A stretch of DNA of 17,188 nt, taken from positions 1 through 17,188 of the forward strand of contig JAUWOV010000037.1 of assembly GCA_030611945.1 (NCBI GenBank), in the 5' to 3' direction. Positions within the stretch are counted from its first letter, which is position 1. Each line of letters opens with the position of its first letter. The translations under genes were made by a program, and so were the position numbers. This stretch comes from a bacterium. GTDB lineage: Bacteria > JAHJDO01. Positions 276 through 15,003 of this stretch are shown in pieces. The notes under the pieces are model-generated. The model did not search any database. It saw only the letters and a program-made list of their open reading frames with translations, and was not told the DNA's origin.

Positions 276-1088
276 ATGGACATTAGATTTAATTATGAAC
301 CAAAATCCGGTTATACAAAGGTATTGTTTCCTGATGGAGAATTATTGAATTATATTGAGTTCGGAATTATAGAACTTTCTGCAGGAGAACAGTATTCGGA
401 AAATACAGAGGACAATGAGGTTGTCCTGATTATTCTCAAGGGTAAGTGTGTGATCAGCACAAACATTATAAAGTGGGGGCCGATAGGTGGGAGAAAGGAT
501 GTATTTAGTGGTAAGGCTTATGCTACGTATATACCAAGACAGAACAGATATGATATTACTGCAACAACTGATTTAGAAGTGGCTGTATGCAAAGGAAGAA
601 CTGATTTTGCTGGGGAGCCTGTTGTTATAACGCCTGATAAAGTAAAAGTTCGATCTGTTGGAAATGGAATCTGGACAAGAAATGTATACAATATTATTGA
701 TGAAAGAACCCCTGCAGGGTCTCTTCTTGTTGGTGAGACAATAAATCCTCCTGGCAATTGGTCATCATTTCCTCCGCATAAACACGATATTGAAAATCCA
801 CCGGAAGAAACAAAATTAGAAGAGGTATACTTTTTTAAAGTTCAGCCTGAAGAGGGGTTTGGTATGCAGAGAGTATATACTGATCCTGCATCGAAAGATG
901 AGGGTTTTGATGAGGCACTAGTTTTAAAAAACAACACTGTGACTGTTATGCCTAGAGGATATCATCCTGTCTGTGCCGCGCCAGGATATTCGGTTTATTA
1001 CCTCTGGATACTTGCAGGGAAAAACAGGAAACTCATTCCCAAAGACGACCCGCAACATTCATGGATTAAGAAGGAAGATAATCTATGA
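276..1088 (+). CDS. iolB: 5-deoxy-glucuronate isomerase (KduI/IolB family)
   Basis: This is a cytosolic bicupin isomerase. IolB enzymes convert 5-deoxy-D-glucuronate to 2-deoxy-5-keto-D-gluconate in myo-inositol breakdown. I chose the ATG at 276 over the one at 258 because AGGGAG (262-267) lies 8 bases before it. That gives 270 residues, the usual IolB length. The C-terminal cupin shows the metal-site pattern: NWSSFPPHKHD with His168 and His170, Glu182/Glu183 in KLEEVYFF, and His230 in PRGYHPVCAAPGY, the IolB signature. The N-terminal half is the weaker first cupin. It is the first intact gene of a seven-gene run, and the next gene starts 15 bp downstream. IolC, IolD, IolE and IolJ are absent nearby, so the true substrate may be another 5-keto or uronic acid. 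The family is secure, the substrate is not. Confidence 0.85.
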   Translation: MDIRFNYEPKSGYTKVLFPDGELLNYIEFGIIELSAGEQYSENTEDNEVVLIILKGKCVISTNIIKWGPIGGRKDVFSGKAYATYIPRQNRYDITATTDLEVAVCKGRTDFAGEPVVITPDKVKVRSVGNGIWTRNVYNIIDERTPAGSLLVGETINPPGNWSSFPPHKHDIENPPEETKLEEVYFFKVQPEEGFGMQRVYTDPASKDEGFDEALVLKNNTVTVMPRGYHPVCAAPGYSVYYLWILAGKNRKLIPKDDPQHSWIKKEDNL

Positions 1089-1103
1089 GGAGGATTTTAG
1101 GAT

Positions 1104-2384
1104 ATGTCTAAACTTAAAAACGTTGTTATTGCTCAATCCGGTGGTCCATCACCAGTAATTAATAACTCTCTCAGGGGAGTTGTCGAGACATGCAAGATGT
1201 TTCCTGAGAAGTTTGGCAGAATATATGCTGGATACCATGGAATAGAGGGTGTCCTTAAGGAGGAATTGTTGGATTTGAGCGCTCAGAGTGAAGAGGAAAT
1301 ATCTCTTTTAAGGACAACTCCAGCTGCTGGAGCAATAGGAACATGCCGCTATAAATTAAAACAAGAACAAGTTGCAGATTTTAATCGTGTTATAGAGGTT
1401 TTTAAAGCTCATAATATCGGCTATTTCTTTTACATTGGCGGCAATGATTCAATGGATACAGCCCATAAAATTAGCGTGCTTGCAAAGGATAAGGGGCTGG
1501 ATTTAATTGCCGTAGGCGTGCCGAAAACAATAGACAATGATGTTGGAGATGAAGAATTCAAGCTTATAGATCATACTCCCGGATACGGAAGTGTAGCAAG
1601 ATACTGGGCGTATTGCATCCAGAATGCAAATGAAGAGAATGCCGGTTCTTCTCCTGCAGATCCTGTTACGGTGATTCAGGCTATGGGAAGGAAGATAGGT
1701 TTTATTCCTGCGGCAGCGCGTCTTGCAGATCCTGAAAGGAAGATGCCATTACAGATATATCTTGCTGAGACTGAGCTTTCAATAGAAGATCTTGCAGACA
1801 ATGTGAATGAAGAGTTAAAAAGATCAGGCAGGGTTATTGTAGTGATAAGTGAGGGATTTCAGGTTGGAGATATTGGAGAAGCAAAGGATGCCTTTGGACA
1901 TACTGAGTTTGGCGCAAGTCATGGTACTGTTAAACAGACGGTTGTGAATTATTTAAATAAAGTTGGACTTAAAGCAAGAGGCAGTGCAAGAGGATTTATA
2001 CCTGGAACTGACCAGCGGGATACAGCAATTTATGCTTCTACAGTGGATTTGGACGAAGCCTACAAAGTTGGTCAGAAAGCGGCTCTGATAGCCTATGAAG
2101 AAACCAATGGTTTTATGTCTACAATTCTCAGAAAATCAGGATCAATTTATAGTGTTGAATATGGCAAGGTTCCGCTTGAACAGGTTGCAAATTCAGAAAG
2201 AAAATTTCCTTCAAACTGGATAGCAAAGAATAGGATTGATGTAACTGACGAATTCGTAAAATATGCAAGACCGCTCATTGGCGAGGATTGGGTGAGCGTG
2301 CCGATAGTTAACGGCATACAGCGTTTTGCTAGAATTAAGCCTGTATTTGCTGAGAAGAAATGCGCTGAATACATTCGCGTATAA
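1104..2384 (+). CDS. pfp: PPi-type 6-phosphofructokinase (PfkA superfamily)
   Basis: This is a 426-residue PfkA-fold phosphofructokinase that phosphorylates fructose 6-phosphate to the 1,6-bisphosphate, most likely with pyrophosphate. The N terminus IAQSGGPSPVINNSL is the phosphate-donor loop. The donor-selecting residues are of the PPi type: Asp115 in GGNDS, where ATP enzymes have Gly, and Lys141 in PKTIDND, where ATP enzymes have Gly. Asn114 stands where the classical GGD motif has a metal-binding Asp. MGRKIGF (194-200) is the substrate-binding MGR motif. A strong GAGGAGG (1087-1093) precedes the ATG and overlaps the iolB stop, so the two are probably coupled. A PPi-PFK is reversible and could serve glycolysis or gluconeogenesis. 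Directly behind IolB it also occupies the place expected for a kinase of the deoxy-keto-gluconate product, but that role is speculation. Confidence 0.85.
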   Translation: MSKLKNVVIAQSGGPSPVINNSLRGVVETCKMFPEKFGRIYAGYHGIEGVLKEELLDLSAQSEEEISLLRTTPAAGAIGTCRYKLKQEQVADFNRVIEVFKAHNIGYFFYIGGNDSMDTAHKISVLAKDKGLDLIAVGVPKTIDNDVGDEEFKLIDHTPGYGSVARYWAYCIQNANEENAGSSPADPVTVIQAMGRKIGFIPAAARLADPERKMPLQIYLAETELSIEDLADNVNEELKRSGRVIVVISEGFQVGDIGEAKDAFGHTEFGASHGTVKQTVVNYLNKVGLKARGSARGFIPGTDQRDTAIYASTVDLDEAYKVGQKAALIAYEETNGFMSTILRKSGSIYSVEYGKVPLEQVANSERKFPSNWIAKNRIDVTDEFVKYARPLIGEDWVSVPIVNGIQRFARIKPVFAEKKCAEYIRV

Positions 2385-2428
2385 AAATAATTAAAGAGAA
2401 GGACTTGATGGGAGGATAGTCAATAATT

Positions 2429-3766
2429 ATGAATTTTCAATTGTTAAATAAGCTGCAGATAAAAGATATTTATAAAAATTCAGTTACAAAAATTCAGGAT
2501 ACGACGCTGCTTTTGGTAAAAAAAGACAGCATAAAGAAACTTGTTGTCATGGGTAATAGGACTATTCTGGATAAATTTGAAGGAGAAATTACCGATTTAG
2601 AAGAAGGCGCTCTAAAAATATGTGATTTAATCTCTAATAATGCGGAGATATTAAGAGATATGTGTCCTTTTACAAAGCCCGTTCCAATTGGCATGCAGAG
2701 TGGGTTTGGATTTGGAGACAGACTTGGAAATGCTACTGTTGGTCATATCAAGGCAGTTAAGAAATTCAAAATTATTCCAATATTTGCCCAGCAGTCCATA
2801 AGGGAGCTTTCAAGGACAGGAAGAACTCCGCAGGAAGTTATAGACAGCGCTGCATGGGCGGTTTTTGAGGATCATTTCGTAGATGGCTATGGCGCTGATG
2901 CGGATCATTTAAAGACACTGCGCGATATAGAAGTAATGGCTAATGCCGGATTTACGATGTTTACAATTGATCCGTCCGATTATATTGAAAATAGAGATGA
3001 AGTTATTAAACATGTTGTCAAGATGTATAACTATCTTAAAGAGTTAAAGGGAGACGCTGCTTTTGACTTTGAGGTATCAGTTGATGAGACTTCTTATCCA
3101 ACAACTGCGGAAGACCACATATTTATTATAAGAAAACTGCGCGAATCAGGTGTGAATGTTACAAGCCTTGCTCCGCGATTTGTAGGTCAGTTTCAGAAGG
3201 GGATTGATTATATAGGGAACATAGAACTTTTCAGAAAACATTTGGTAGAACATTGCAATATTGCAAAAGATAACGGCGGTTATAAATTAAGCATTCACTC
3301 AGGCAGCGATAAGTTTTCTGTATACCCTGTGATCGGTGAGGTGACAGAAGGCAATATTCATGTTAAAACAGCGGGAACATCATATCTTGAAGCAATAAAA
3401 ACAGTAGCAGAAACAAGTCCGGATTTTTATAGAGAACTTCACAATTTTGCGCTTAAAAGATTTGAAAAGGACAGAGCATCCTATCATGTAACAACTGATT
3501 TACGCAGAATACCTGACGTAAAAGACTTGAAGGATTCTGAATTGCCTGAACTTATGAATCAAATTGACGCCCGCCAGCTTATGCATATAACGTATGGTTC
3601 GGTTCTTAATGCAAAAGACAAGAATGGAGAATTGCTTTATAAAAACAGGTTAATGAAAATACTTAATGAGTATGAGGATATATATTATAAGCATCTTGAC
3701 AGTCATCTTTCAAAGCATCTGGAAAAGCTGGGAGTAGAAAGAAAGCAGCGAGTGAAATTTAAATAA
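2429..3766 (+). CDS. uxaE: UxaE-like tagaturonate epimerase
   Basis: This 445-residue cytosolic protein belongs to the UxaE family, whose characterised members interconvert D-tagaturonate and D-fructuronate in galacturonate breakdown. Conserved-looking blocks are GFGFGDRLG (92-100) near the N terminus, IHSGSDKFSVYP (289-300), VKTAGTSYLEAI (312-323) and RQLMHITYGSVL (382-393). The His and Asp residues in these blocks are candidate metal or catalytic positions, but I cannot assign them individually. GGGAGG at 2410-2415 is 13 bases before the ATG, a little long but the best site present. The gene is 44 bp after pfp and 16 bp before the aminotransferase, so it sits inside the operon. No uxaC, uxaB or kdgK lies nearby, which leaves open whether the substrate is a classical hexuronate or a related keto acid made by the neighbours. 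Confidence 0.75.
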   Translation: MNFQLLNKLQIKDIYKNSVTKIQDTTLLLVKKDSIKKLVVMGNRTILDKFEGEITDLEEGALKICDLISNNAEILRDMCPFTKPVPIGMQSGFGFGDRLGNATVGHIKAVKKFKIIPIFAQQSIRELSRTGRTPQEVIDSAAWAVFEDHFVDGYGADADHLKTLRDIEVMANAGFTMFTIDPSDYIENRDEVIKHVVKMYNYLKELKGDAAFDFEVSVDETSYPTTAEDHIFIIRKLRESGVNVTSLAPRFVGQFQKGIDYIGNIELFRKHLVEHCNIAKDNGGYKLSIHSGSDKFSVYPVIGEVTEGNIHVKTAGTSYLEAIKTVAETSPDFYRELHNFALKRFEKDRASYHVTTDLRRIPDVKDLKDSELPELMNQIDARQLMHITYGSVLNAKDKNGELLYKNRLMKILNEYEDIYYKHLDSHLSKHLEKLGVERKQRVKFK

Positions 3767-3782
3767 AGAGAGGAGTTGGATT

Positions 3783-5153
3783 ATGAGTAAATATAATTTG
3801 AAACCGATAGATGTGCCCAAAGTTAAGACAAAATACCGCTGTATACAAACAAAACTTCCTGTACCTGAATCTCTTAGTATATTTAAGGCATTGCAGGAAT
3901 CTGAACCTGCATCCATGATGGGGCAGCCGCCTATAGTATGGCATAAAGCCGAAGGATTTCAGGTTTCGGATAGATGGGGCAATACATGGCTTGATTGGTC
4001 TTCCTGTGTGTTGATTAGTAACGCAGGACATGGAAGGAAAGAGATTATAGCGGCTATAAAAGATATGCTGGACCAAAATCTTCTGGCCACTTATGTTTTT
4101 GTCCATGAAAAAAGGGCAGAGCTTACCAAAGCCCTGCAGGCTCTTTCCCCTGATCCAAAAAATTACAATGTGTTTATACTTACTACTGGTAGTGAAGCCA
4201 CAGAGAACTGTATTAAGCTGGCAAAGACCTACGCTCTGGAAAAACACGGGTCTCAAAAAAAATATATGGTTACTTTCAAGAACGCTTTTCATGGTCGTAC
4301 ATTAGGCTCGCAGCTGGCGGGAGGTATGGATAAATTAAAGAAATGGATCGTTGATGAAGGCAGGACATTTATTCAGGTGTCTTTTCCTGACGGTTATAAG
4401 AACGAGGATGTCTCTTTTGACCTTTTCTTGAAAAGCATAGCCGAACAAAATATAAAACCCGAAGAAATAGCCGGTGTTATGACGGAATCCTATCAAGGCG
4501 TAGGTCCCGATTTCTTGCCCTATGATTATGCTCAGGCTTTAGACAAGTTTTGTAAAGAGCATGATATCGTAACTATTTTTGATGAGGTGCAGGCCGGTTT
4601 TGGCAGAACTGGAAAGATGTTTTGTTTCCAGCATTATAATATAAAACCAGACCTTATTGCTTGCGGAAAAGGCATTACTTCCTCATTGCCTCTTTCAGCA
4701 GTAATCGGCAGAAAGGACATTATGGGACTCTACGCGCCGGGATCTATGACTTCTACTCACTCGGCAAGTCCTATTCCTGTGGCTGCGGCTCTGGCCAATT
4801 TGGAGATAATAAAGAAGGAAAGTCTTGTAGAGAATGCCAGGAAGTTAGGAGAAATACTTATACCTGAGCTAGAGAGAATAAAGAATAAATATTCAGACAG
4901 ACTCGGTTGCGTTCAGGGCAAGGGGCTTGTGGCTGGTATTCAGGTGGTAAAGAGCGGCACTAAAGAGCCTGATGCCGAGACAGCTTTAAAGATCAACGAA
5001 AAATGTTTCCAGAAAGGACTGTTGATGTTTGCGCCGGTGGGTATCAACGGTGAGTGTATAAAAATTTCCCCGCCTTTAACTATAAACGAAGAGGCTTTAA
5101 GGGAAGGCATTGGTGTGCTTGAAGAAGCGTGCGATGAAGTATTGGGAAACTAA
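3783..5153 (+). CDS. Class III PLP-dependent aminotransferase (GabT/ArgD-like)
   Basis: This is a complete 456-residue class III (omega) aminotransferase, cytosolic, that moves an amino group between an amine or amino acid and a keto compound through pyridoxal phosphate. Visible landmarks are GHG (82-84), the cofactor-phosphate loop TTGSEAT (134-140), NAFHGRT (167-173), the PLP-ring Asp267 in IFDEVQAGFGRTG, the Schiff-base Lys296 in CGKGIT, and Thr325 in STHSASP. AGAGGAG (3768-3774) is well placed before the ATG. The closest feel is the 4-aminobutyrate/ornithine/beta-alanine group, but the substrate cannot be read from sequence. Its place between UxaE and a Gfo/Idh/MocA oxidoreductase suggests a sugar or cyclitol ketone or a short semialdehyde as amino acceptor. 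If inositol chemistry is involved, malonate semialdehyde to beta-alanine is one possibility. Confidence 0.85.
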   Translation: MSKYNLKPIDVPKVKTKYRCIQTKLPVPESLSIFKALQESEPASMMGQPPIVWHKAEGFQVSDRWGNTWLDWSSCVLISNAGHGRKEIIAAIKDMLDQNLLATYVFVHEKRAELTKALQALSPDPKNYNVFILTTGSEATENCIKLAKTYALEKHGSQKKYMVTFKNAFHGRTLGSQLAGGMDKLKKWIVDEGRTFIQVSFPDGYKNEDVSFDLFLKSIAEQNIKPEEIAGVMTESYQGVGPDFLPYDYAQALDKFCKEHDIVTIFDEVQAGFGRTGKMFCFQHYNIKPDLIACGKGITSSLPLSAVIGRKDIMGLYAPGSMTSTHSASPIPVAAALANLEIIKKESLVENARKLGEILIPELERIKNKYSDRLGCVQGKGLVAGIQVVKSGTKEPDAETALKINEKCFQKGLLMFAPVGINGECIKISPPLTINEEALREGIGVLEEACDEVLGN

Positions 5154-5170
5154 TTTGGAGAATTAATGTT

Positions 5171-6448
5171 ATGATAAATAAAAAGTCGGACAAGACAGTT
5201 GATGTTACCATAGTCGGCGGGGGCATGATTACCAATGACTTGATTTTACCTTCTGTTTATCATTTGCAGAGGATGGGTGTAGTGGGAGACATAAATATAT
5301 GTTCGCTGAATAATCCTCCGCTCAAAGCGCTCAAAGAGAACAAAGAGATTCAGGATGCGTTTCCAGGCCAGGATTTTACAGCTTATCCGTCTCTTTCGGA
5401 GTTACCTGATAAAAACCTTCCTGAATTGTACAAGGAAGTATTAAGCAGGATGCCATCCCGTCAGGCTGTGGTAGTGGCTATGCCTGACCAGCTTCACTAC
5501 GAAGTGGTTAAGGAAGCATTAAAAAATAATCAGCATGTGCTTTGTGTCAAACCACTTGTCCTAAAGTACGAACAGGCGAAAAAAATTGAAGAGATTGCTT
5601 ATCAGAAAGGGCTTTTTGTCGGAGTGGAATATCATAAACGTTTTGACATTCGTTCGCTGATAGCCAGACGCAGTTATGAACTTGGCCACTTCGGTGAATT
5701 TGTTATGGGAGAGGCTAAGATGATTGAACCGTATCTTTACAGGTCTTCTAATTTTCAAAACTGGTTTACTATGGATAAAACAGACCCGTTTGTTTATGTG
5801 GGCTGCCATTATGTTGATCTGGTTTACTTTATCACAGGTCTTAAACCTGCTGAGGTTTCAGTGGCTGGGATCAAAGGAAAGTTTCCTAACGGAAAAGAAG
5901 GTTATATGTGGGCAAACGGTCGGGTTAAGTATGAGAACGGGGCTTTATTGTCTGTAACTGACGGATTGGGTTATCCAGATGATGGCGCCGGCAGTAACGA
6001 GCAAAATCTGACTATGTACTGCGAAGGCAGCGGAAAAACAGGTATGATTAAACATAATGATCAGTTCAGGGGTGTAAGCCACAGTTTTTTGGAAAACATT
6101 GGCTGTGCAGGGTCACGATTTAATTATATCAATCCTGATTTTTACCGTTTGGTTCCATGGGAAGGAGAAGGATATAAACCCGTAGGATATGGTTTTGAAT
6201 CAGTGGCTGCAACAATCAATACTATTAGCAGCATTGAAAATGAAGCGCAATCTTTTTCCGAAGACGAATCGTTGAATAAAAGACAAAAAATGATCAAGGA
6301 TGTTGATGAAAAGGGTATTATTGCCACACCGGCTAACAGTTATATAAATGAATTGGTAGTTGAAGCGGCAAGAATGTCAATATTAAGCGACGGCGACGCC
6401 ATAAAAATTGTTTATGGAGATGAGCCGCACGTAGAACAGCGTGGTTAA
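5171..6448 (+). CDS. Gfo/Idh/MocA family NAD(P)-dependent oxidoreductase
   Basis: This is a 425-residue dehydrogenase of the glucose-fructose oxidoreductase/inositol dehydrogenase family. The N-terminal Rossmann fold has VTIVGGGMI (12-20) for NAD(P). The family EKP motif appears as VKP (126-128), keeping the catalytic Lys127. YHKRFD (154-159) follows, and GCHYVD (211-216) matches the HxxD catalytic site in the C-terminal domain. The protein is longer than the usual 330-390 residues, with extra sequence around residues 50-95 and at the C terminus. GGAG (5157-5160) is 10 bases before the start, and the gene follows the aminotransferase by 17 bp. The pairing suggests one enzyme oxidises a sugar or cyclitol hydroxyl to a ketone that the other aminates, or the reverse in catabolism. 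The substrate is unknown. Confidence 0.85.
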   Translation: MINKKSDKTVDVTIVGGGMITNDLILPSVYHLQRMGVVGDINICSLNNPPLKALKENKEIQDAFPGQDFTAYPSLSELPDKNLPELYKEVLSRMPSRQAVVVAMPDQLHYEVVKEALKNNQHVLCVKPLVLKYEQAKKIEEIAYQKGLFVGVEYHKRFDIRSLIARRSYELGHFGEFVMGEAKMIEPYLYRSSNFQNWFTMDKTDPFVYVGCHYVDLVYFITGLKPAEVSVAGIKGKFPNGKEGYMWANGRVKYENGALLSVTDGLGYPDDGAGSNEQNLTMYCEGSGKTGMIKHNDQFRGVSHSFLENIGCAGSRFNYINPDFYRLVPWEGEGYKPVGYGFESVAATINTISSIENEAQSFSEDESLNKRQKMIKDVDEKGIIATPANSYINELVVEAARMSILSDGDAIKIVYGDEPHVEQRG

Positions 6449-6464
6449 GTCAGGGATATAAAGA

Positions 6465-7808
6465 ATGAGATTCACAAATGGCAGGATTTGTACAAAGGAT
6501 AAAATAGTAACGGATCAAGACCTGATCATTAATGATGGCAGAATTTTTTTAGAAAAAAGCGCTGGAAATATTAAGTGTAAAGATGAAAATATTGTTGATC
6601 TTAAAAGCTCTTATGTCCTGCCGGGATTTGTGGACATTCATACACATGGGGCCGGTTTATTTGACCTCACTTTAGGTCAATATAATCCTAAAACTAATTC
6701 CTTTCAAAGCTCTTCTGAAATATATCAGGAAGCATTTCCTCGTTATGTGCGACTGCGTACAAAAACAGGAGTTACTAATCTATATTTGGCTACTATTGCG
6801 GATTCCATAGAACATCTGCAATTTTGTCTTGAGCAATTGAATAAATACATGAATTCGGATAGCAATGGTCGGGATGGTTGTTTAATAAAAGGTAGTTTGC
6901 TGGAAGGCACTTTTTTAAATCCCCTGATGTGCGGCGCCCAGAATCCAGAATATGTTTTTGCGCCGGATATTAAAAAATTTGATGAGATAAATAAATCGGG
7001 CGCAATAAAATTAGTTAATGTAGTTCCTGATCATGGCAAGGAGTCTTTTAAATTAACAAAAGCCCTTCAGGAAAAAGGTATTATCGTTGGAACAGGACAT
7101 ACAAACGCTACTGCCGATCAGATTAAAACAGCTATGGAAAATGGACTGGACTATGTCATCCATTTTCTTAATGGTCCTACAGGCAGTTCTTTTAAACCTT
7201 TTAATGGAGGCGGAGCAGTAGAAGGGATATTACAGAATGACAGTATATACGTTGAATTAATTGTGGACGGATTTCACGTTAATCCGGCTTATGTACGGGA
7301 TGTTATAGAAAGGAAAGGCATTGAGAATATCATTGCTGTTACAGACGCAGTGTTTGTTAGTCAGGCTGAAGATATCACAGACTTTGAGATGGCGGGAATT
7401 TCCGGACGTATGAGCGCGGACGGGAAGTACGTATATGTAGCAGGGTCAAAACCATTAACCCTTTTCGGCAGCGTTCTGACTATGGATAAGGCGTTCAGCA
7501 ATATATTATCTTTACTAACTCAGGACATGGCAGGGGTATGGTATCGTGAACATAAGGCTATTGATTTTGACCGAGCTGTTTTGACTGCGGCTCGGATGTG
7601 TGCAGCAAACCCATGTGATATGTTAAAGAAACACGGAGCGGAAGATCCTGAAACAGGATCCATAGAAGAGGGCAAATGGGCTGATTTGTTAGTAGCGGAT
7701 ATTAAAGGACAATCGGGAGATTACAAGTTGGATGTTCATAATGTTTTTGTGCGTGGCAATAATGTATTTTCTGATATTAAACAAAAAAAGAATATGATAA
7801 ATGAGTGA
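6465..7808 (+). CDS. NagA-like amidohydrolase (N-acetyl amino sugar deacetylase)
   Basis: This is a 447-residue metal-dependent amidohydrolase of the N-acetylglucosamine-6-phosphate deacetylase group. It shows DIHTHG with His59 and His61, metal ligand Glu147 in LEGTF, His212 in GTGHTNA, His233 in IHFLNGP (NagA has a His-Leu-Phe-Asn motif here), His271 in VDGFHV, and the catalytic Asp294 in VTDAVF. The small beta domain is formed by residues 1-50 and about 400-435, ending in GKWADLLV. It is about 60 residues longer than typical NagA, mainly around residues 65-90 and 300-330. AGGGA (6452-6456) sets the ATG. NagA itself normally neighbours NagB, which is absent here, so the substrate may be a different N-acetylated sugar, sugar acid or phosphate. 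The gene overlaps the next one by 8 bp. Confidence 0.8.
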   Translation: MRFTNGRICTKDKIVTDQDLIINDGRIFLEKSAGNIKCKDENIVDLKSSYVLPGFVDIHTHGAGLFDLTLGQYNPKTNSFQSSSEIYQEAFPRYVRLRTKTGVTNLYLATIADSIEHLQFCLEQLNKYMNSDSNGRDGCLIKGSLLEGTFLNPLMCGAQNPEYVFAPDIKKFDEINKSGAIKLVNVVPDHGKESFKLTKALQEKGIIVGTGHTNATADQIKTAMENGLDYVIHFLNGPTGSSFKPFNGGGAVEGILQNDSIYVELIVDGFHVNPAYVRDVIERKGIENIIAVTDAVFVSQAEDITDFEMAGISGRMSADGKYVYVAGSKPLTLFGSVLTMDKAFSNILSLLTQDMAGVWYREHKAIDFDRAVLTAARMCAANPCDMLKKHGAEDPETGSIEEGKWADLLVADIKGQSGDYKLDVHNVFVRGNNVFSDIKQKKNMINE

Positions 7809-8688
7809 TCCTGCGCAGTTATTAAAAGATCTTAAAGCGGAAAAACAGTTTTTTGTGGGCATTGATTCTGACGGGTGTGCGTTTGACACTATGGAAGTAA
7901 AGCATAAAGAATGTTTTATTCCTAATATCATCAATGAATGGGAGCTTCAGGCAGTATCAAAGTATGCAAGAGAAGCTGCGGAATTTGTAAACCTCTATTC
8001 AAAATGGCGTGGAATAAACAGGTTTCCTGCTCTTACAATGGTTTTTGATCTTCTTCAAGAAAGAGAAGACGTAAAAAAACGCGGTGTTAATATACCTGAA
8101 GCAAAGTCCCTGCGTGAATGGATTGAGAAAGAAACAAAGCTCGGTAATCCTGCTTTAGAACAAGCCGTTAAGGAAACAAATGACACTGTGTTAACTCAGG
8201 CTTTAAAATGGTCTAAGGCAGTTAACGAGTCTGTGGCAAAAATAGTTCGCGGAGTGCCTCCGTTTCCTTTTGTCAGAGAAGGTCTTGAAAAGATATCTAA
8301 TACAGCAGATGCAATTGTTGTGTCTGCCACTCCATGTGATGCTCTCAAGAGAGAGTGGGATGAACATGATATTGCTAAATATGTCAGGGTGATTGCTGGA
8401 CAGGAGATGGGAACAAAGAAAGAACATCTGGCATTTGCCGCTGTTGGGCAGTACAAGCCGGATCATATTCTAATGATAGGCGATGCTCCGGGAGATATGA
8501 AAGCAGCGTGCGCTAATAATGCCCTGTTTTATCCAATTAATCCCGGAGACGAAGATATATCATGGGAAAGATTCTACAATGAAGCCTTTGATAAATTTAT
8601 AAATGGAACATATGCTGGAGATTATGAAAAATCCCTGATAGACGAGTTTGACAAGTATTTACCCAGCATCCCGCCGTGGAAGAAATAA
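7801..8688 (+). CDS. HAD superfamily hydrolase, probable sugar-phosphate phosphatase
   Basis: This is a 295-residue haloacid-dehalogenase-fold hydrolase. Motif I is GIDSDGCAFDT, with nucleophile Asp22 and acid/base Asp24. Motif II is Ser175 in VVSATP. A lysine for motif III is offered by Lys206/Lys207. Motif IV is GDAPGD, with Asp228 and Asp232. The large insert between motifs I and II (about 150 residues, mostly helical in character) is a type 1 cap that would set specificity. The ATG at 7801 overlaps the end of the NagA-like gene by 8 bp and has only a weak upstream purine stretch, so it is probably translated by coupling. As last gene of the operon it plausibly removes phosphate from the pathway product. 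Some HAD proteins are instead phosphoglucomutases, but the long cap and DxD make a phosphatase the first guess. Confidence 0.8.
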   Translation: MSDPAQLLKDLKAEKQFFVGIDSDGCAFDTMEVKHKECFIPNIINEWELQAVSKYAREAAEFVNLYSKWRGINRFPALTMVFDLLQEREDVKKRGVNIPEAKSLREWIEKETKLGNPALEQAVKETNDTVLTQALKWSKAVNESVAKIVRGVPPFPFVREGLEKISNTADAIVVSATPCDALKREWDEHDIAKYVRVIAGQEMGTKKEHLAFAAVGQYKPDHILMIGDAPGDMKAACANNALFYPINPGDEDISWERFYNEAFDKFINGTYAGDYEKSLIDEFDKYLPSIPPWKK

Positions 8689-8700
8689 TGCAAACGTGTC

Positions 8701-8726
8701 ATTGTCCCGAAAGCTTTCGGGACAAT
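8701..8726. repeat. Perfect 26-bp palindrome
   Basis: The half-site ATTGTCCCGAAAG is followed without spacer by its exact reverse complement. In RNA it would form a strong hairpin, but no T-tract follows on either strand, so it is not a standard Rho-independent terminator. It lies 12 bp after the HAD gene stop and could stabilise the operon's 3' end. It may equally be a dispersed palindromic repeat or a protein-binding site. Confidence 0.85.
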
Positions 8727-8742
8727 CCAAAAACTAAATTTA

Positions 8743-8771
8743 TTGAGGTTCTAGGCAATTTTAAGTATAGT
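8743..8771 (+). promoter_or_regulatory. Sigma-70-type promoter of the toxin-antitoxin operon
   Basis: A -35 box TTGAGG (8743-8748) and a -10 box TATAGT (8766-8771) are separated by exactly 17 bp. They match the consensus at 4 of 6 and 5 of 6 positions. Transcription would start near 8778, 20 bp before the antitoxin ATG. This is the clearest promoter in the window. Confidence 0.65.
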
Positions 8772-8779
8772 AGCCTCAA
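8743..8779. promoter_or_regulatory. Inverted repeat overlapping the promoter, candidate autoregulatory operator
   Basis: TTGAGG (8743-8748) is mirrored by CCTCAA (8774-8779), with an inner CTA (8751-8753) and TAG (8768-8770) also able to pair. One arm coincides with the -35 box and the other with the expected start of transcription. Type II antitoxins usually repress their own promoters at such sites. The role here is inferred from position and symmetry only. Confidence 0.4.
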
Positions 8780-8797
8780 AGTAACAGAGGAGGAAAA

Positions 8798-8989
8798 ATG
8801 TTAGTCACGGAAAAATTTGAAGCGGAAAGTCTAATAAAAAAACTTCCAGATAAAAGCACATTTGAAGACATTCAGTATCATCTTTATGTCGCAGAAAAAT
8901 TAAAAAATGCCAGACAACAAGTAAAAGATGGAAAAATCCATTCACAGGCAGAGGCAGAAAAAAGGCTTGGAAAATGGATTATGAAGTAG
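8798..8989 (+). CDS. Antitoxin of a ParE-type toxin-antitoxin pair
   Basis: This 63-residue acidic and basic helical protein begins at an ATG preceded by a strong GAGGAGGAAAA. The central pattern, LPDKSTFEDIQYHLYVAEKL, then a KDGKIHS turn and EAEKRLGKW, matches small antitoxins that usually precede ParE/RelE toxins. In these the LP..T.EDI.Y.LYV.EK segment is the conserved core and the C-terminal part wraps the toxin. No clear DNA-binding motif can be seen, but the inverted repeat over the promoter suggests the pair represses itself. The 3' end overlaps the toxin gene by 16 bp, the usual arrangement for coupling antitoxin and toxin dosage. Identification rests on both sequence pattern and context. 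Confidence 0.8.
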   Translation: MLVTEKFEAESLIKKLPDKSTFEDIQYHLYVAEKLKNARQQVKDGKIHSQAEAEKRLGKWIMK

Positions 8990-9288
8990 TTTGGGCGGAT
9001 GAAGCGTTATGTGATGTTAAGGAAATCGCCGAATATATTGAAAAAGATTCGTTTTTTTATGCGAGTTCAATTGTGACAAAGATTATGGACACAACAAGGC
9101 ATCTTGCGTTATTTCCGTTTGCTGGACGTATTGTTCCTGAAGAAAATAAAGCATCGGTAAGGGAGTATTTTGTATACAATTACAGAATCATCTACGAAAT
9201 CCGAGATTCAGCGGTTTACGTATTGGCTGTTGTTCACGGAAAGAGAATGCTTTATCCTGGATTTAAAAAAAGAATAAAGAAAGGATGA
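8974..9288 (+). CDS. ParE/RelE superfamily toxin
   Basis: This is a 104-residue toxin with the ParE/RelE fold. The N terminus YEVVWADEALCDVKEIAEYI is the first strand and helix hairpin. FPFAGRIVPE is the family F..GR.VPE turn. The C terminus YRIIYEIRDSAVYVLAVVHG followed by KRML is the ParE-like strand pair ending in the conserved HG(K/R)R. ParE toxins poison DNA gyrase, while RelE toxins cut mRNA on the ribosome. The sequence resembles the ParE branch more, but the target is not provable here. It is expressed from inside the antitoxin coding region, with no independent ribosome-binding site of note. Length and all family landmarks are intact, so it is probably functional. Confidence 0.85.
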   Translation: MDYEVVWADEALCDVKEIAEYIEKDSFFYASSIVTKIMDTTRHLALFPFAGRIVPEENKASVREYFVYNYRIIYEIRDSAVYVLAVVHGKRMLYPGFKKRIKKG

Positions 9289-9347
9289 CAATGCCTACGT
9301 ACGCAAACAAAAATTCTGTTTCGCTTAATTCTTGTAGATGATTAGAT

Positions 9348-9515
9348 ATGTATATTGAAATAGAATCTGAAGATGATGGTCGCTGGATAGCAGAAGTTAA
9401 AGATTTGCCTGGTGTAATGGGGTATGGTCAAAGTCGTGAGGAGGCAGTTTCCAAAGTAGAAGCTTTGGATCTTCCTGTCAAGCAGGAAGATGACTGCATA
9501 TATGGCGATTTTTAA
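9348..9515 (+). CDS. Solitary HicB-like protein, short and possibly truncated
   Basis: This 55-codon frame begins MYIEIESEDDGRWIAEVKDL, then PGVMGYGQSREEAVSKVEAL. That is the standard HicB/UPF0150 antitoxin core: a beta strand with E.EDDGRWIAEV, then LPGV..YG.(S/T)REEA...VEAL. After residue 40 the family normally continues with a helix ending near a HG(E/D) motif. Here it becomes DLPVKQEDDCIYGDF and stops. The divergence coincides with a 9-bp hairpin (9469-9491). There is no good ribosome-binding site, and no HicA toxin is visible on either side (59 bp to the ParE gene upstream, 14 bp to the next gene). It may be an orphan antitoxin, a regulator, or a decaying gene. Confidence 0.6.
   Translation: MYIEIESEDDGRWIAEVKDLPGVMGYGQSREEAVSKVEALDLPVKQEDDCIYGDF
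9469..9491. repeat. 9-bp perfect hairpin inside the HicB-like gene
   Basis: ATCTTCCTG (9469-9477) and CAGGAAGAT (9483-9491) are exact reverse complements around a 5-base loop. The hairpin sits where the protein leaves the HicB consensus and 39 bp before the next start codon. It could be a small palindromic insertion or an RNA structure affecting the downstream gene. Confidence 0.6.
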
Positions 9516-9529
9516 ACAAAAGGGTGGAA

Positions 9530-11797
9530 ATGGAAACAAAGAAGACAAATAAAGTTTTTTGGTTGGTTCTGTTTGGAATTTTGGTGGTTGGATTTTCTAG
9601 ATATTGTTTTGCCGTCGAAAAAAATTTCTCGACGGAAGAAATTTTCAAGCAGGCTGAAATTAAACGTTCCAGGATTAAAAGTGTACAAATGATTTATGAA
9701 ATAGGAGAAGGAACAGGAAAGGCAGGAGAAATACACATGGTTTGGAGAAAGCCCAATTTTACAAAATTGGTTTTTATAATTGGCGGTCACAAGACCATAA
9801 ATATCTTTGATGGCAAAGTTCAGTGGAAAGGCTATGAAGAAAATTTTGGCGGGGAAATTACAAAGATAGATTTATCCGGGGGGTTATCAGAAGAAGAAAA
9901 AAGCAGAATAAGGAAGATGTTGCATCCTGACATTAGGTATTTTTGTTGCAGCGATGATGTTTTTCCTGATATTTTTTCAGATATGTTTCCTGGGATGTTT
10001 TCTCATTCCAATTGGAAATTCCAGGAGGTAGAAACTGGACATTTTGGGAGAGTATATCCCTTAACTGCAGAACGGACAGAAGATAAAGCGAAATTATGGT
10101 TAGGCTGTGAAGATGGATTGATACATAGATTGGAGTTTTCCGTGAAGGGTAGCCCTAATACGATAATATTAAAAAAGCTAATCATCAATCAACCAATTCC
10201 TCAAGAGTGTTTTACTTACCAGCCTCCTCCTGAAGCAAGAATTAAAGAACTTACTGCCGAGGAATTCATCAAACAATTGGTCCCATGGAAGCAACAGCGT
10301 GTGCGTGTAGAAAGAATAAAAGAAGCAATAGAATCCAAACTTAAACAGGGAGTAGTAACAGTTACCTATGGAATAATAATAAGTAACGGTCCTAAATTTT
10401 TAGCACTCACCAAAAAGGGCCATGGAATTGGATTTGTTGCTGATAACGAAGGGCATATTTTGACTATTTTGCATCGGGGAATGGGTACCAAGAATGAAAA
10501 AGTAAAGACAGTTACTGGAGAAGAATTCAAAGCAAAAATTATTAAAAGAGATAAGGAAACGGGAGCTACTTTGCTCAAGATAAAGAGAAAAGAACCTTTG
10601 CCAAAACTGCCATTTGGCGATATTAAAGAACTGTCAGTTGGTGAAGATGTATTTGTTGTTTGCGGTAGTTACAAACATGTTTTTTGTATCCATAAAGGAT
10701 TCATAAGCGAACTTGATCTGAGAGGGGAAAATGATTTGATAAAAGTCCGTATACCATCAAGTAAGTCATGCTTGGGTCCTTTAGTCAACATACATGGGGA
10801 AGTAGTGGGAATTATTACTTCTATAAACGGTACCACAGGCCAGGATGCTGTTTCCTGTACAGCAATCCCTATCAGTACAATTATGAAAAGATTAGGAAAT
10901 AAAGAGGCGAATGTAAAAATTCAGAAACTAATTCAGGATCTTTTAGAAGGGGATGTTACGGAATATAAGAAGGCACAAGTCGCTTTAAGGAGAATTGGGA
11001 AATCAGCAGTGCCCGATTTAATTCAGGCATTAAAGGATAAGGACAAAGACCGACGATGGATGATAATTAGTATGCTGGCAAAAATCGGTGACAAATCAGC
11101 AGTCTCTGCTATAGCAGAAGCCTTGAAAGACGAAAACCCAACTGTTCGGTGGAGTGCAGCGTTTGAATTGAGAAGATTTGGTCACATACATGCACCCTCT
11201 GCATTAATTGATGCATTAAAAGATGAGAATAAAACAGTCAGGGAAAATACCGCTATAACACTGGCAATTATCTGCGACAAGGGAACAACCAATGTTTTAA
11301 TTGAAGCACTGAAAGATGAAGAATCGTCTGTTAGAGAAGGTGCTGCATGGGCATTGGGAAGAATACGCAATAAATCTGCAATTCTTGCTTTAAGGAGTTC
11401 TCTAAAGGATGAAAATCCATCTGTGCGAATGAAAGCAGCAGCAGCACTGGTAAGCTTAGGAGACGAATCTGCGCTGCCTGTTATTTTCAAAGCTCTGAAA
11501 TACGAAGATCAGCCTATACGTGAGAAAACAATATGGGCATTGGAAGAACTTATCAACGGGCAAGCAGTATCCCCTTCGCAAATAGTTCCACACTTGGTAG
11601 AAGCGTTGGAAGATAAGGATTCATCTATTCGCAGGGGAGCAGCATTCCTCTTAAAAAGAATCGGCGACAAATCAGCGATTCCAGCATTAGAGAGAGCTTT
11701 GAAGTGTGAAAAAGAATCTCTTGCACGAGCAGAAATAGTAGAAACTCTACGGTTTTTGGGAAAACCAAAATGGTTAAGAAAATACATATTCTGGTAA
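9530..11797 (+). CDS. Exported LolA-like / degenerate HtrA-like / HEAT-repeat protein
   Basis: I prefer the ATG at 9530 (755 residues) over the GTG at 9524, because the purine run at 9518-9525 can then serve as ribosome-binding site. Residues 8-28 are a hydrophobic signal peptide with a possible cut after CFA. Residues 33-230 resemble the LolA/outer-membrane lipoprotein-sorting fold (IDG/FDG turn, VWRKPNF, late PL..F). Residues 280-455 align with an HtrA/trypsin-like protease: GIGFVADNEGHILTILHRG keeps His315, but the Asp position in DKETGATLLKI is Gly345 and the Ser position in SCLGPLVN is Cys414, so normal serine-protease activity is unlikely. Residues 478-747 form about eight HEAT (PBS-lyase-like) repeats. 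The ALKDE motif recurs at 500, 531, 562, 593, 624 and 655, exactly 31 residues apart. It is probably a periplasmic binding or scaffold protein. The function is unknown. Confidence 0.75.
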   Translation: METKKTNKVFWLVLFGILVVGFSRYCFAVEKNFSTEEIFKQAEIKRSRIKSVQMIYEIGEGTGKAGEIHMVWRKPNFTKLVFIIGGHKTINIFDGKVQWKGYEENFGGEITKIDLSGGLSEEEKSRIRKMLHPDIRYFCCSDDVFPDIFSDMFPGMFSHSNWKFQEVETGHFGRVYPLTAERTEDKAKLWLGCEDGLIHRLEFSVKGSPNTIILKKLIINQPIPQECFTYQPPPEARIKELTAEEFIKQLVPWKQQRVRVERIKEAIESKLKQGVVTVTYGIIISNGPKFLALTKKGHGIGFVADNEGHILTILHRGMGTKNEKVKTVTGEEFKAKIIKRDKETGATLLKIKRKEPLPKLPFGDIKELSVGEDVFVVCGSYKHVFCIHKGFISELDLRGENDLIKVRIPSSKSCLGPLVNIHGEVVGIITSINGTTGQDAVSCTAIPISTIMKRLGNKEANVKIQKLIQDLLEGDVTEYKKAQVALRRIGKSAVPDLIQALKDKDKDRRWMIISMLAKIGDKSAVSAIAEALKDENPTVRWSAAFELRRFGHIHAPSALIDALKDENKTVRENTAITLAIICDKGTTNVLIEALKDEESSVREGAAWALGRIRNKSAILALRSSLKDENPSVRMKAAAALVSLGDESALPVIFKALKYEDQPIREKTIWALEELINGQAVSPSQIVPHLVEALEDKDSSIRRGAAFLLKRIGDKSAIPALERALKCEKESLARAEIVETLRFLGKPKWLRKYIFW

Positions 11798-11851
11798 TGA
11801 TTATTGGAATGCTTGAGCAGATAATACAGCATAAAAGGAGAAGAGAATAAG

Positions 11852-12298
11852 ATGAATGAGAAAAAAATAAAAGGACTAATTGGAATGGATTTGATACGCC
11901 TGTTCTACTTTTTAAGCATTATAATATATATTTTTCTTTTTATATTAATGAGACGCCATGTTCCAGTTGGCTTACAATCTATTGTTGCGATTGGCTTGTG
12001 GGTTTTATTGATAAAAATAATTACAAAGAGATATTTGTGGGGATGGGCTGTTATAATTGGGGCTAGTATTTTTTATATATTTTGCTATGGATATGGTTCA
12101 TTGGTTGTGTTTAGGGTAATGCCACCAATACCAATGGAGTTATCTTTTTCGCATTATTTATTATTCCTATTATTTTTACCAATACAATTTGCTATGCAGA
12201 TACCGTTAATATCTTATATTGTAATAGCAATACCAATAGGTATCCAAATAGCTATTCTTGTATACATTGTTAGAAATAAAGCTTATTTTGTTCGATAA
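11852..12298 (+). CDS. Small hydrophobic integral membrane protein, unknown function
   Basis: I do not recognise this 148-residue protein. It is strongly hydrophobic, with likely membrane segments at about residues 17-33, 40-57, 62-88, and one long or two short segments at 101-138. It has a lysine-rich N terminus and a short basic C-terminal tail. It has no obvious signal peptide, catalytic motif or conserved signature. AAGGAG (11835-11840) supports the ATG. It lies 54 bp after the LolA/HtrA/HEAT gene on the same strand, so the two may be co-transcribed. It could anchor or accompany that exported protein, which is a guess from position only. Confidence 0.6.
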   Translation: MNEKKIKGLIGMDLIRLFYFLSIIIYIFLFILMRRHVPVGLQSIVAIGLWVLLIKIITKRYLWGWAVIIGASIFYIFCYGYGSLVVFRVMPPIPMELSFSHYLLFLLFLPIQFAMQIPLISYIVIAIPIGIQIAILVYIVRNKAYFVR

Positions 12299-12377
12299 AG
12301 AATGGAGTTAAATCTTTATCATTGACAAATTAGAGAAAGAATAATATGGAAATGATATTACGCAATAAACATCTGGA

Positions 12378-12398
12378 TTCCCCGATTAAATCGGAGAA
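12378..12398. repeat. Imperfect palindrome, module 1 of an intergenic repeat cluster
   Basis: TTCCCCGAT and ATCGGAGAA form a 9-bp stem with one mismatch around TAA. The flanks CTGGA and TGACA resemble dispersed palindromes with a CTGGATTCC...GGAATGACA frame that are seen in many bacterial genomes. It is the first of three palindromic units in the 207-bp gap between the membrane protein and pdxB, which holds no gene. Confidence 0.6.
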
Positions 12399-12415
12399 TG
12401 ACACAATAAGGCAAA

Positions 12416-12436
12416 GGAATCAGGCGTGCCTGTTCC
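12416..12436. repeat. Palindrome, module 2 of the intergenic repeat cluster
   Basis: GGAA-T-CAGGC pairs with GCCTG-TTCC, leaving a single bulged T at 12420 and GT between the arms. The G+C-rich core stands out from the AT-rich surroundings. No T-tract follows, so a terminator role is unlikely. Confidence 0.55.
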
Positions 12437-12462
12437 CTACATAAAAATACTCAAAAGGACGA

Positions 12463-12490
12463 GATTGCTTCACTTCGTTCGCAATGACAG
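12463..12490. repeat. Palindromic repeat unit, module 3, just before pdxB
   Basis: GATTGC (12463-12468) through GCAATGACAG (12481-12490) is a semi-palindrome with ATTGC/GCAAT ends and a CTTCACTTCGTTC core. This form (GATTGCTTCgCTTCGcTCGCAATGACAG-like) is a familiar dispersed intergenic repeat. It ends only 15 bp before the pdxB GTG, so it must lie in the pdxB mRNA leader or promoter. Confidence 0.6.
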
Positions 12491-12505
12491 AAAGAATATT
12501 TTAAA

Positions 12506-13648
12506 GTGAAAATAGTTGTTGATGAGAATATTCCATTTGCTAAGGAGGCGTTTTCTACGTTAGGAGAAGTTGAGACTTCTCATGGAAGAGAGATAACTCC
12601 TCAAAAGGTAAAGGATGCTGATGTTCTGATTGTCCGCTCTATCACAAAGGTTAATTCCAAACTTTTAGAAAAAAGCTCGGTTAAGTTTGTTGGAACAGCT
12701 ACGATAGGAATGGATCATATTGATGTTGAGTATTTGAAGGATAGAGACATCGGATTTGTAAGCGCGCCCGGTTCCAATTCAAATTCCGTTGCAGAGTACA
12801 TAGTTTGTGCATTGTTAAGCGCGGCAAACGAGTTATATCTTAATCTTTGCGATTTGACAATTGGAATTATAGGCGTAGGTAACGTTGGCAGTAAAGTAGT
12901 AAAGAAGGTGGAGGCTTTGGGAATAAAAGTGCTTCTTAATGACCCACCTCTTCTTGAAAGAACGGGAGACGCAGAATATCGTCCAATACAGGAATTGACG
13001 GATAATTGCGACATATTAACATTTCACGTTCCCCTTGAAAGACATGGTAACTATCCTACTCATCATATGATAAATGAAAAGTTTCTCAGAAGTTTAAAGA
13101 AGTGCCCCATAATTATAAATACCTCTCGCGGAGGTGTTATGGACACGGATGCTGTTAAGAGCGCTTTGATGCATTGCGGGATATCACAGACTATCTTAGA
13201 TGTGTGGGAGAACGAGCCGAATATTGATATGGAAATACTTAAAATGGCTCTTATCGGGACTCCTCATATTGCAGGCTATTCGTTTGATGGTAAGGTCAAT
13301 GGAACATTTATGATATACGACAGTTTGCGCCGATATTTAAATAAGAAGGCGGAATGGAATCCACAAGACTTTTTGCCGAAGAGTAATTGTCCGGTTGTTA
13401 AAGTTAATGAACGGAACGTATCATTAGAAAAAAAATTACACAAAGTTGTTTCCCAATTGTACAATATCGAAAAAGATGATTTAAAACTTAGAGAATCTCT
13501 TTCTGTGCCTGCTGAAAAAAGGGGTGCGCATTTTGACTCTTTGAGAAAGAATTATCCTGTGAGAAGAGAGTTTTTTAATACAAGTATTTTGTTTGAAAAA
13601 GAAGATTTGCAATTAGCGAATATTTTATCAAAAATAGGGTTTAAGTAG
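12506..13648 (+). CDS. pdxB: Erythronate-4-phosphate dehydrogenase
   Basis: PdxB oxidises 4-phospho-D-erythronate to 2-oxo-3-hydroxy-4-phosphobutanoate, the second step of the DXP-dependent pyridoxal phosphate pathway, in the cytosol. The GTG start gives MKIVVDENIP, the canonical PdxB N terminus, at 380 residues (family about 380). The Rossmann loop GIIGVGNVGSKV is at 120-131. The D-2-hydroxyacid dehydrogenase triad is Arg208 (TSRGG), Glu237 (WENEP) and His254 in TPHIAGYS. HIAGYS distinguishes PdxB from SerA and other relatives. The C-terminal 100 residues match the PdxB dimerisation region in length. The ribosome-binding site is weak (AGAAAGAA, 12489-12496) and abuts a dispersed repeat. A terminator follows immediately, so it may be a single-gene unit. 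Its product PLP is the cofactor of the class III aminotransferase upstream. Confidence 0.88.
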   Translation: MKIVVDENIPFAKEAFSTLGEVETSHGREITPQKVKDADVLIVRSITKVNSKLLEKSSVKFVGTATIGMDHIDVEYLKDRDIGFVSAPGSNSNSVAEYIVCALLSAANELYLNLCDLTIGIIGVGNVGSKVVKKVEALGIKVLLNDPPLLERTGDAEYRPIQELTDNCDILTFHVPLERHGNYPTHHMINEKFLRSLKKCPIIINTSRGGVMDTDAVKSALMHCGISQTILDVWENEPNIDMEILKMALIGTPHIAGYSFDGKVNGTFMIYDSLRRYLNKKAEWNPQDFLPKSNCPVVKVNERNVSLEKKLHKVVSQLYNIEKDDLKLRESLSVPAEKRGAHFDSLRKNYPVRREFFNTSILFEKEDLQLANILSKIGFK

Positions 13649-13704: not shown

Positions 13705-15003
13705 ATGCCATGGTTTTATGAAGAATCCAAAGAGATAGATATAAATAAGAAGCAGGAAGTGATGGAAAGAGTTATGCAGGAAGCGGGAAAGAGGATAACA
13801 AAGGATCTCAAAAAGGTTCTTTTATTACCTCCTGACATTACTCGTTGTCATTCAGGCGCTGGGAAATTAACAGAAATGATTTACAAGCTTCTTCCAAAGA
13901 CTTGTAAGGTTGATGTTATCCCAACATTAGGACAGCATGTTCCTCATACTGAGGAGGAAAACAAATGGATGTTCGGCTCTATACCTCAGGAGTGTTTTCT
14001 TGAGCATGATTGGAGAGACGGCTGTAAAAAAATCGGCGAAGTTCCTGCTGATTATGTGAAAGAGGTCAGTGAAGGCAAAGCGGACTGGCCGATACCTGTT
14101 GAAATTAATAGAAAAGTTGTAGAAGAGAATTATGACCTTATAGTAAATATAGGACACGTCGTTCCTCATGAAGTGCTTGGTTTTGCCAACCACAACAAGA
14201 ATTACTTTATTGGTCTCGGCGGCAAAGAAATGATATGCGCTTCCCATATGATGGCGGCGTGCTGTGGTATTGAAAATAATCTGGGTCAGCTTATAACGCC
14301 TTTGAGAGCATGTTATAACAAAGCAGAAAAAGAGTATTTAAGTAATCTTCCGCATGTATATGTTCAAATCGTCATGGCGAGAAATCAAGATGGTAAACTT
14401 GTTACTACGGGATTGTATGTCGGAGATGATCTTGAAACATATTTAATGGCAGCTAAAAAAAGCAGGGAACAAAACATTACCGTTTTTGACAAACCTGTTA
14501 AAAAAATTGTTGCAGTAATGCAGGCAGACGAATTCAAGAGCACATGGGTAGCTAATAAAGCGATATACCGTACACGTATGGCTATAGCAGATGGAGGAGA
14601 GTTATTGATTATTGCGCCGGGACTTGAGCGTTTTGGTGAACAGCCGGAAGTTGATAAGATTATCCGTAAATATGGATATGTTGGAACTCCAGCTATTATG
14701 GAGCAATATAGAAAGAATGCAGATATGCAGGATCTGAGACATGCTACTGCGCACCTTATTCATGGGTCATCTGAGGGTCGTTTCAGCATAATATACGCTC
14801 CCGGAAAGTTGACCAAGAGCGAGATAGAAGGAGTTAATTTTAAATATGCGGATATTAGAGAGACTTTAAATAGATATAATCCTGAAAAGATGTCAGAAGG
14901 TTGGAATACCATGCCTGACGGCGAGCAGGTCTTTTTTATCAGCTCTCCATCAGCAGGTTTGTGGGCATGTAGAGAAAAATTAGAAGCACGAAATTCAAAA
15001 TAG
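13705..15003 (+). CDS. larA: LarA-family nickel-pincer racemase/epimerase, probable gluconate 2-epimerase
   Basis: This 432-residue LarA homologue belongs to the enzymes that use the nickel-pincer nucleotide to invert the alpha-carbon of 2-hydroxyacids. Key residues are Arg47 (DITR), His78 in [10 protein letters not shown] (LarA GxHRPxTEEE), His155 in VVPHE, Lys165 in NHNK and His181 in CASH. The spacing 155/165/181 equals the 174/184/200 of the Lactobacillus enzyme, covering nickel binding, lysine attachment and catalysis. AGGAG (13690-13694) sets the start. The next gene is 6-phosphogluconate dehydrogenase, 41 bp downstream, which points to D-gluconate/D-mannonate epimerisation rather than lactate. 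The altered HVPH and NHNK surroundings also suggest a substrate other than lactate. LarB, LarC and LarE, which make the cofactor, are not in the window and must be elsewhere for activity. Confidence 0.8.

Follow-up and report, generated by a model that had tools for sequence, protein, structure and literature searches.

The window analyzed here is a complete contig of 17,188 nucleotides (JAUWOV010000037.1; G000:C118) from a 1.66-Mb bacterial genome (GCA_030611945.1; 91% complete; hereafter G000), and its left half holds a compact seven-gene operon. These genes, all on the + strand, encode an IolB homolog (276–1088; TIGR04378, 269.5 bits, cut-off 205), a phosphofructokinase (PFK)-like kinase (1104–2384; NF010675, a PRK14072-type subfamily, 387 bits, cut-off 273), a member of the tagaturonate/fructuronate epimerase family UxaE (2429–3766; PF16257, 549.9 bits; PDB 6ilb and 9lhu), a class III pyridoxal phosphate-dependent aminotransferase (AT3; 3783–5153; PF00202, 279 bits), a Gfo/Idh/MocA oxidoreductase (Gfo; 5171–6448; PF01408), a NagA-like amidohydrolase (6465–7808; TIGR00221, 152 bits, below the cut-off of 225.65), and a cap-type HAD-family phosphatase (7801–8688; PF13419, 30 bits). 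By score, IolB, PFK, and UxaE are clear family members, and the amidohydrolase is merely NagA-like. The intergenic gaps measure 15, 44, 16, 17, and 16 bases, the single overlap is 8 bases, and most of the seven starts are preceded by Shine-Dalgarno-like stretches. An earlier note on this DNA had described the same seven reading frames, families, spacing, and overlap, and this description is confirmed. Based on computed families, gene order, co-occurrence, and residue changes, we favor a reading with two modules in one operon (probability about 0.58), namely a core that leads from hexuronates to pentose phosphates and a separate AT3-Gfo-NagA module.

The operon was previously thought to end at position 8688. 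Sister genomes indicate that three further genes on the + strand belong to it too. These encode a PdxB-like 4-phosphoerythronate/D-2-hydroxyacid dehydrogenase (12506–13648; NF001309, 429.3 bits, cut-off 434), a putative LarA-family nickel-dependent hexonate epimerase of group 18 (13705–15003; NF052594, 623 bits, cut-off 500), and the 6-phosphogluconate dehydrogenase Gnd (15045–16457; TIGR00873, 769 bits, cut-off 426.7). The phylum is sampled by five genomes of a single genus (G000 and its sisters G001 to G004), and their gene orders reveal a larger locus of which the seven genes form the left half, with a 3.8-kb insertion splitting the ancestral operon. Three sister genomes lack the insertion and have PdxB directly after HAD; in G003, the HAD stop abuts the PdxB start. 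The order is IolB-SDR-PFK-HAD-PdxB-LarA-Gnd in G003 and G004, with two additional genes before Gnd in G003, and SDR-PFK-HAD-PdxB-LarA-Gnd with one additional gene in G001. None of UxaE, AT3, Gfo, and NagA is found between PFK and HAD in these three sisters, whereas in the window these four genes occupy the PFK-HAD interval and the SDR gene is no longer at this place. G002 has PFK-AT3-Gfo-NagA-HAD, colinear with the window at 92% identity, and has no UxaE at this place. The operon was thus built up in steps.

The HAD phosphatase is a conserved marker of the core cluster. Among the 192 genomes searched with this protein, 18 have a homolog. A tally by eye covered 14 lineages, with the genus of G000 counted once, the named Glassbacteria and Gemmatimonadales contigs added, and several loci cut off by the end of a contig; 11 of them have a LarA-like gene nearby, nine a PFK-like gene, and nine Gnd. 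For a 2.5-Mb genome, we estimate that a single-copy gene would lie by chance within 16 kb of another, in either direction, in approximately 1% of cases. In about eleven lineages besides the genus of G000, HAD has neighbors from among the genes for LarA-like proteins, Gnd, D-mannonate oxidoreductase, UxaE, IolB/KduI, and PFK-like proteins, and the Glassbacteria and Gemmatimonadales contigs likewise carry core neighbors. Gnd lies within the cluster in G005, G058, G062, G049, G071, G042, G043, and G031. The cluster of G071 (TRAP transporter by eye-IolB-SDR-Gnd-HAD-PFK-LarA) contains a near-complete set of steps, with the PFK-like protein as its sole kinase. A search of genome contigs with UxaE as query yielded no more than six loci, each at 40–43% identity, and several of these contigs held parts of the core cluster. 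The gene set is thus more than a chance assembly, as genes for PFK, LarA-like proteins, Gnd, and mannonate oxidoreductase recur beside HAD in unrelated lineages.

The AT3, Gfo, and NagA genes have a different distribution. They are not found in the core clusters of the three sisters or of any other lineage examined. AT3 homologs (45–75% identity) often adjoin a Gfo gene, and the AT3-Gfo pair occurs in at least eight other genomes, where the stretches examined are without the core. The two genes are adjacent in G250 (71% and 68% identity, respectively), G216, G197, G004, and G059, and, more distantly, in G164 and G188; the Gfo identities in the G216, G197, and G004 pairs are 52%, 51%, and 57%, respectively. 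Because these genes are missing from core clusters elsewhere and AT3-Gfo pairs occur without the core, two modules rather than one pathway are indicated. The neighborhood comparison that the earlier note had proposed therefore gives a divided answer, in that the homologs are unlinked for the seven genes as a set and linked within each module.

The core resembles the pectin/galacturonate regulon of Thermotoga maritima, which holds gnd-uxaR-uxaE-uxaD-gntE-gntK (PMC3750489), and the earlier view that the operon fits no standard sugar pathway is wrong for this part. In T. maritima, galacturonate is converted through tagaturonate, fructuronate, mannonate, gluconate, and 6-phosphogluconate to ribulose-5-phosphate (PMC3750489; PMC7583248). 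Both systems unite UxaE, a LarA-family hexonate epimerase, and Gnd in one locus, together with an oxidoreductase that in this genus lies in the clusters of G001, G003, and G004, and the T. maritima route and the one proposed here both lead to 6-phosphogluconate and ribulose-5-phosphate. However, the window cluster is without GntK and has a PFK-family protein in the kinase slot, its LarA belongs to group 18 instead of group 20, and it has a conserved HAD and IolB/KduI in addition. The cluster gives the same steps except for the kinase and is hence a variant, not a member, of the T. maritima route. In the proposed scheme, IolB/KduI, or UxaC encoded elsewhere in the genome, would convert glucuronate/galacturonate to fructuronate/tagaturonate, which UxaE would interconvert. 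Fructuronate would then be reduced by a mannonate oxidoreductase of the SDR type, and the resulting mannonate would be epimerized to gluconate by the nickel enzyme of the LarA family. The PFK-family enzyme would phosphorylate the terminal hydroxyl, probably with pyrophosphate (PPi) as donor, and Gnd would convert 6-phosphogluconate to ribulose-5-phosphate. The kinase could also precede the epimerization by acting on mannonate, or even use fructuronate, and the product would be the same.

For the first of these steps, the absence of UxaC noted earlier holds for the window but not for the genome, in which UxaC is encoded at G000:C84:217–1602 (686 bits). G000 and G004 have both UxaC and IolB, whereas no UxaC was found in two sisters that are at least 95% complete, G001 and G003, the latter of which carries the cluster IolB. 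IolB homologs with 44–47% identity are also part of the cluster in G042 and G071. The genes next to IolB in the window and in G003, G004, G071, and G042 are mainly uronate/hexonate genes; the search for iol genes was confined to these neighborhoods. The related E. coli KduI has been linked to galacturonate/glucuronate conversion, for which isomerization was proposed (PMC3578941). A role of IolB as a glucuronate/galacturonate ketol-isomerase is plausible, although it is not required here. The UxaE of the window is the only one found in its genome, and it is shorter than full-length relatives, with approximately 60 residues missing after DPSDYIENR. The cluster SDR is assigned to D-mannonate oxidoreductase by NCBIfam in the sisters (409 bits) and G071 (356 bits; cut-off 281). 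In the window genome, an SDR of this type lies at C26:301–1107 and scores 275.7 bits, just below this cut-off.

The residues D44, R47, H78, H155, K165, H181, and K285 of the LarA-like protein are invariant in all 12 sequences compared, such that the nickel-pincer nucleotide-binding and catalytic positions are kept. Its sole PDB match at an E-value threshold of 0.001 is 4nar, the T. maritima GntE2 that was shown to epimerize mannonate/gluconate (PMC7583248). LarA group 18 was called just a "putative hexonate epimerase" by its discoverers (PMC7583248), and we propose that the window protein is a mannonate-gluconate 2-epimerase. Gnd is a true 6-phosphogluconate dehydrogenase by score, with ribulose-5-phosphate as product. 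All 16 HAD sequences compared share the motif residues D22, D24, S175, K206, D228, and D232, as well as R57, R70, and R74. Its structure model (predicted local distance difference test score of 93) has a common cap-type phosphatase fold. The fold matches (Z 15–17) include phosphoglycolate phosphatases, beta-phosphoglucomutase, a pyrophosphatase, and a mannitol-1-phosphate phosphatase, and this fold search indicates a general phosphatase/phosphomutase fold alone and names no substrate. HAD may be an auxiliary phosphatase, perhaps one that removes incorrect or inhibitory sugar-acid phosphates. As a guess, the inhibitory phosphate might be 4-phosphoerythronate, which would suit the adjoining PdxB. 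A role of the PdxB-like protein as a 2-ketogluconate reductase was considered and dropped, as its best family is PdxB. Similarly, a kanosamine-type set of Gfo, aminotransferase, and HAD was rejected, as HAD belongs with the core and not with AT3/Gfo.

The kinase is the step at which this cluster departs from T. maritima. Cluster PFK-like copies form their own clade (support 85/90) apart from housekeeping PFKs, including an eight-member subclade on a long branch (100/100). The PPi signature Asp104/Lys124 (E. coli numbering) is kept in the cluster PFKs, including the window protein, except for that of G042, which has Gly at 104. Positions 162, 243, 249, and 252 of E. coli PfkA bind the substrate 6-phosphate. 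Arg243 and Arg252 align in the window PFK, albeit across a gapped loop, whereas Pro162 and Thr249 differ from the ligands of the fructose-6-phosphate 6-phosphate group. Across the cluster PFKs, position 162 is Pro (Thr in two) and position 249 is Thr (Leu in two). In comparison, other PFK copies have Arg, Lys, or Gly at 162 and His or Tyr at 249, except for L109 of G059 (Lys162/Thr249). The PPi-PFKs of PDB 3hno and 3k2q are homologous to the window PFK over the whole length (E-values of 2e-74 and 2e-75, respectively) and share the PPi signature; the window protein differs from them in Pro162/Thr249 and in the loop ahead of the conserved Arg252. Furthermore, the PFK-like protein is the single kinase type that recurs in the cluster, and no gluconokinase of either family searched (GntK and FGGY) scores above cut-off in the 18 cluster genomes, although the FGGY test is weak, with only two of 14 controls passing. 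The FGGY match of the window genome is a xylulokinase (616.6 bits, cut-off 380). In G062, a PfkB-family kinase closest to 2-keto-3-deoxygluconate (KDG) kinases takes the place of PFK between HAD and LarA, which also fits a sugar-acid kinase at this position. From these patterns, we infer both substrate and phosphoryl donor, and predict that the cluster protein is a PPi-dependent sugar-acid 6-kinase acting on the hydroxymethyl end of gluconate/mannonate, or on C1 of fructuronate. The substrate carboxylate would sit where a true PFK holds the substrate 6-phosphate. A literature search found no PPi-dependent gluconate kinase, and we know of no PFK-family enzyme with PPi-dependent hexonate 6-kinase activity.

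The second module combines an aminotransferase with a deacylase. NagA is joined to AT3-Gfo solely in the window genome and its sister G002. A gene encoding an M20 deacylase lies between AT3 and Gfo in G349 and follows AT3 in G128, and a NagA-like gene is beside a DegT aminotransferase in G049. The combination of aminotransferase and deacylase thus recurs with unrelated partners. When aligned to E. coli NagA, the window protein keeps the catalytic Glu131, His195, His216, His251, and Asp273, but differs in the HxH metal motif, in its score below cut-off, and in an operon without NagB. In addition, Arg227 is replaced by Phe, Tyr, or Thr in all six NagA-like sequences compared. The loss of this phosphate-binding residue suggests that the substrate is probably not phosphorylated. 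With low confidence, the probable role of the trio is to remove nitrogen from an N-acetylamino sugar acid that carries no phosphate, a direction that we infer from its gene content. After deacetylation by the NagA-like enzyme, AT3 would transfer the amino group onto a keto acid and Gfo would reduce the ketone left behind, and the product, a hexonate or a uronate, would enter the core. A literature search on N-acetylglucosaminate transamination returned nothing useful.

Several observations weigh against the two-module reading or its parts. Other PFKs also vary at position 162 (Arg, Lys, or Gly), and the loop from 243 to 252 was aligned with gaps. The Glassbacteria/Gemmatimonadales copies have Thr162/Leu249 instead of Pro/Thr, and the one for which a score was obtained reaches 560 bits against the canonical PPi-PFK model, a good fit. 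FGGY gluconokinases may exist below the cut-off; T. maritima itself was among the controls that gave a signal in that search. The PfkB-family kinase of G062 shares its cluster with a 2-keto-3-deoxy-6-phosphogluconate aldolase and may thus be a KDG kinase. The window LarA is only about 25–29% identical to the LarA proteins of other clusters, and the IolB score (269.5 against 205) exceeds the equivalog cut-off of the true inositol-pathway isomerase. Finally, distant AT3 relatives (38–43% identity) are found in nonulosonate-type glycan clusters, which suggests biosynthetic use.

This last point bears on the second module alone. AT3-Gfo may work in the aminating direction and supply a surface glycan with an amino sugar or cyclitol, its place in the operon being incidental. 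This alternative is compatible with the core and is a possibility to be taken seriously, although we do not favor it. The distant relatives in L146 and L147 are, by eye, beside NeuB/NeuA-like genes, and the G004 pair is located between shikimate dehydrogenase and shikimate kinase genes, near sugar epimerases. Conversely, the attachment of a deacylase in two unrelated forms, NagA-like here and M20 in G349, fits the removal of an acyl group. A different alternative, which we consider unlikely, leaves the core standing and places the PFK-like protein in the pentose phosphate pathway after Gnd, as a sedoheptulose-7-phosphate/fructose-6-phosphate PPi-kinase, while an FGGY kinase encoded elsewhere phosphorylates gluconate. 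Its subfamily is annotated as PPi-PFK, transketolase-like genes are seen by eye in the G005 and G058 clusters, and most genomes carry FGGY kinases below cut-off. However, almost none of the other PFK copies in these genomes shares the residues of the cluster proteins at the substrate-phosphate positions, and the cluster PFKs branch separately in the tree. Most cluster genomes have further PFKs outside the cluster, including two in the window genome, one of which (C54) directly adjoins a transketolase-like gene.

The proposal of the earlier note, in which all seven enzymes degrade an N-acetylated amino-uronate or aminocyclitol in a single series of reactions, appears improbable. The tight packing with one overlap and the retention of PFK-AT3-Gfo-NagA-HAD in G002 are in line with one pathway, whereas core clusters without AT3, Gfo, and NagA, as well as the absence of UxaE at this place in G002, are not. 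The idea fails for the seven genes as a unit, which comprise two modules with different histories, and its deacetylation and deamination steps survive, with low confidence, for the trio. Least probable of all is a variant inositol pathway with a true IolB, PFK replacing IolC, UxaE as aldolase, AT3 acting on malonate semialdehyde, and Gfo as IolG, which the IolB score and a best NCBIfam match of Gfo to IolG (though far below cut-off) would fit. However, IolB homologs in the other clusters compared adjoin mannonate oxidoreductase, LarA, and Gnd instead of inositol genes.

Under the two-module reading, the locus is ordinary in outline, as it varies a uronate route that is already known. This route is spread across many little-known lineages and would be fed by uronic acids derived from the polymers of plants and algae. 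The points of interest are the candidate PPi sugar-acid kinase, which offers a testable gene assignment for the missing kinase, and the unassigned deacylase-aminotransferase-oxidoreductase module. If the assignment is correct, a PPi-driven kinase would spare ATP in fermenters growing on pectin-like polymers. In addition, LarA group 18 gains a pathway context. A related case is Lactobacillus suebicus, which has a mannonate kinase/6-phosphomannonate 2-epimerase branch and in which the branch-point kinases and epimerases are still without assigned genes (PMC6978723). There too, hexonate phosphorylation links hexuronates with the pentose phosphate side, but ATP is the donor in extracts and the phosphoketolase pathway comes next (PMC6978723). 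A stronger joint proposal is tentative and rather doubtful: that the PFK-family protein is a PPi-dependent gluconate/mannonate 6-kinase across many uncultured lineages, and that AT3-Gfo-deacylase is also an unreported route from N-acetylamino sugar acids to hexonates through hydrolysis, transamination, and reduction rather than NagB-type or dehydratase chemistry.

Several minor features were also observed. L146 and L147 also contain a glyoxalase-like protein (by eye), and the AT3 homologs in L142 and L144 are beside an M20 deacylase and what by eye resembles a Dfp-like flavoprotein. The sisters G001, G003, and G004 have a NagA-like paralog (48–50% identity; L067, L069, and L070), likewise without Arg227 and, by eye, amid K+ transporter, folE, and his genes. 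The UxaE copies of G001 and G003 are in unrelated surroundings, and G001 has two contig-end fragments of further UxaE copies (the end of L012 and the start of L013), the second followed by a DegT aminotransferase (by eye). Alongside the G062 cluster (L158) are a UxaC-family gene, a KduI homolog, an SDR, and a second NagA-like amidohydrolase. In the window, the palindrome TGTCCCGAAAGCTTTCGGGACA lies downstream of the HAD stop. The insertion (8689–12505; no strand assigned) carries toxin-antitoxin genes, namely a short possible antitoxin reading frame (8798–8989) and a ParE-type toxin (8974–9288), and also encodes a trypsin/HEAT-repeat protein with a GTG start and a small membrane protein.

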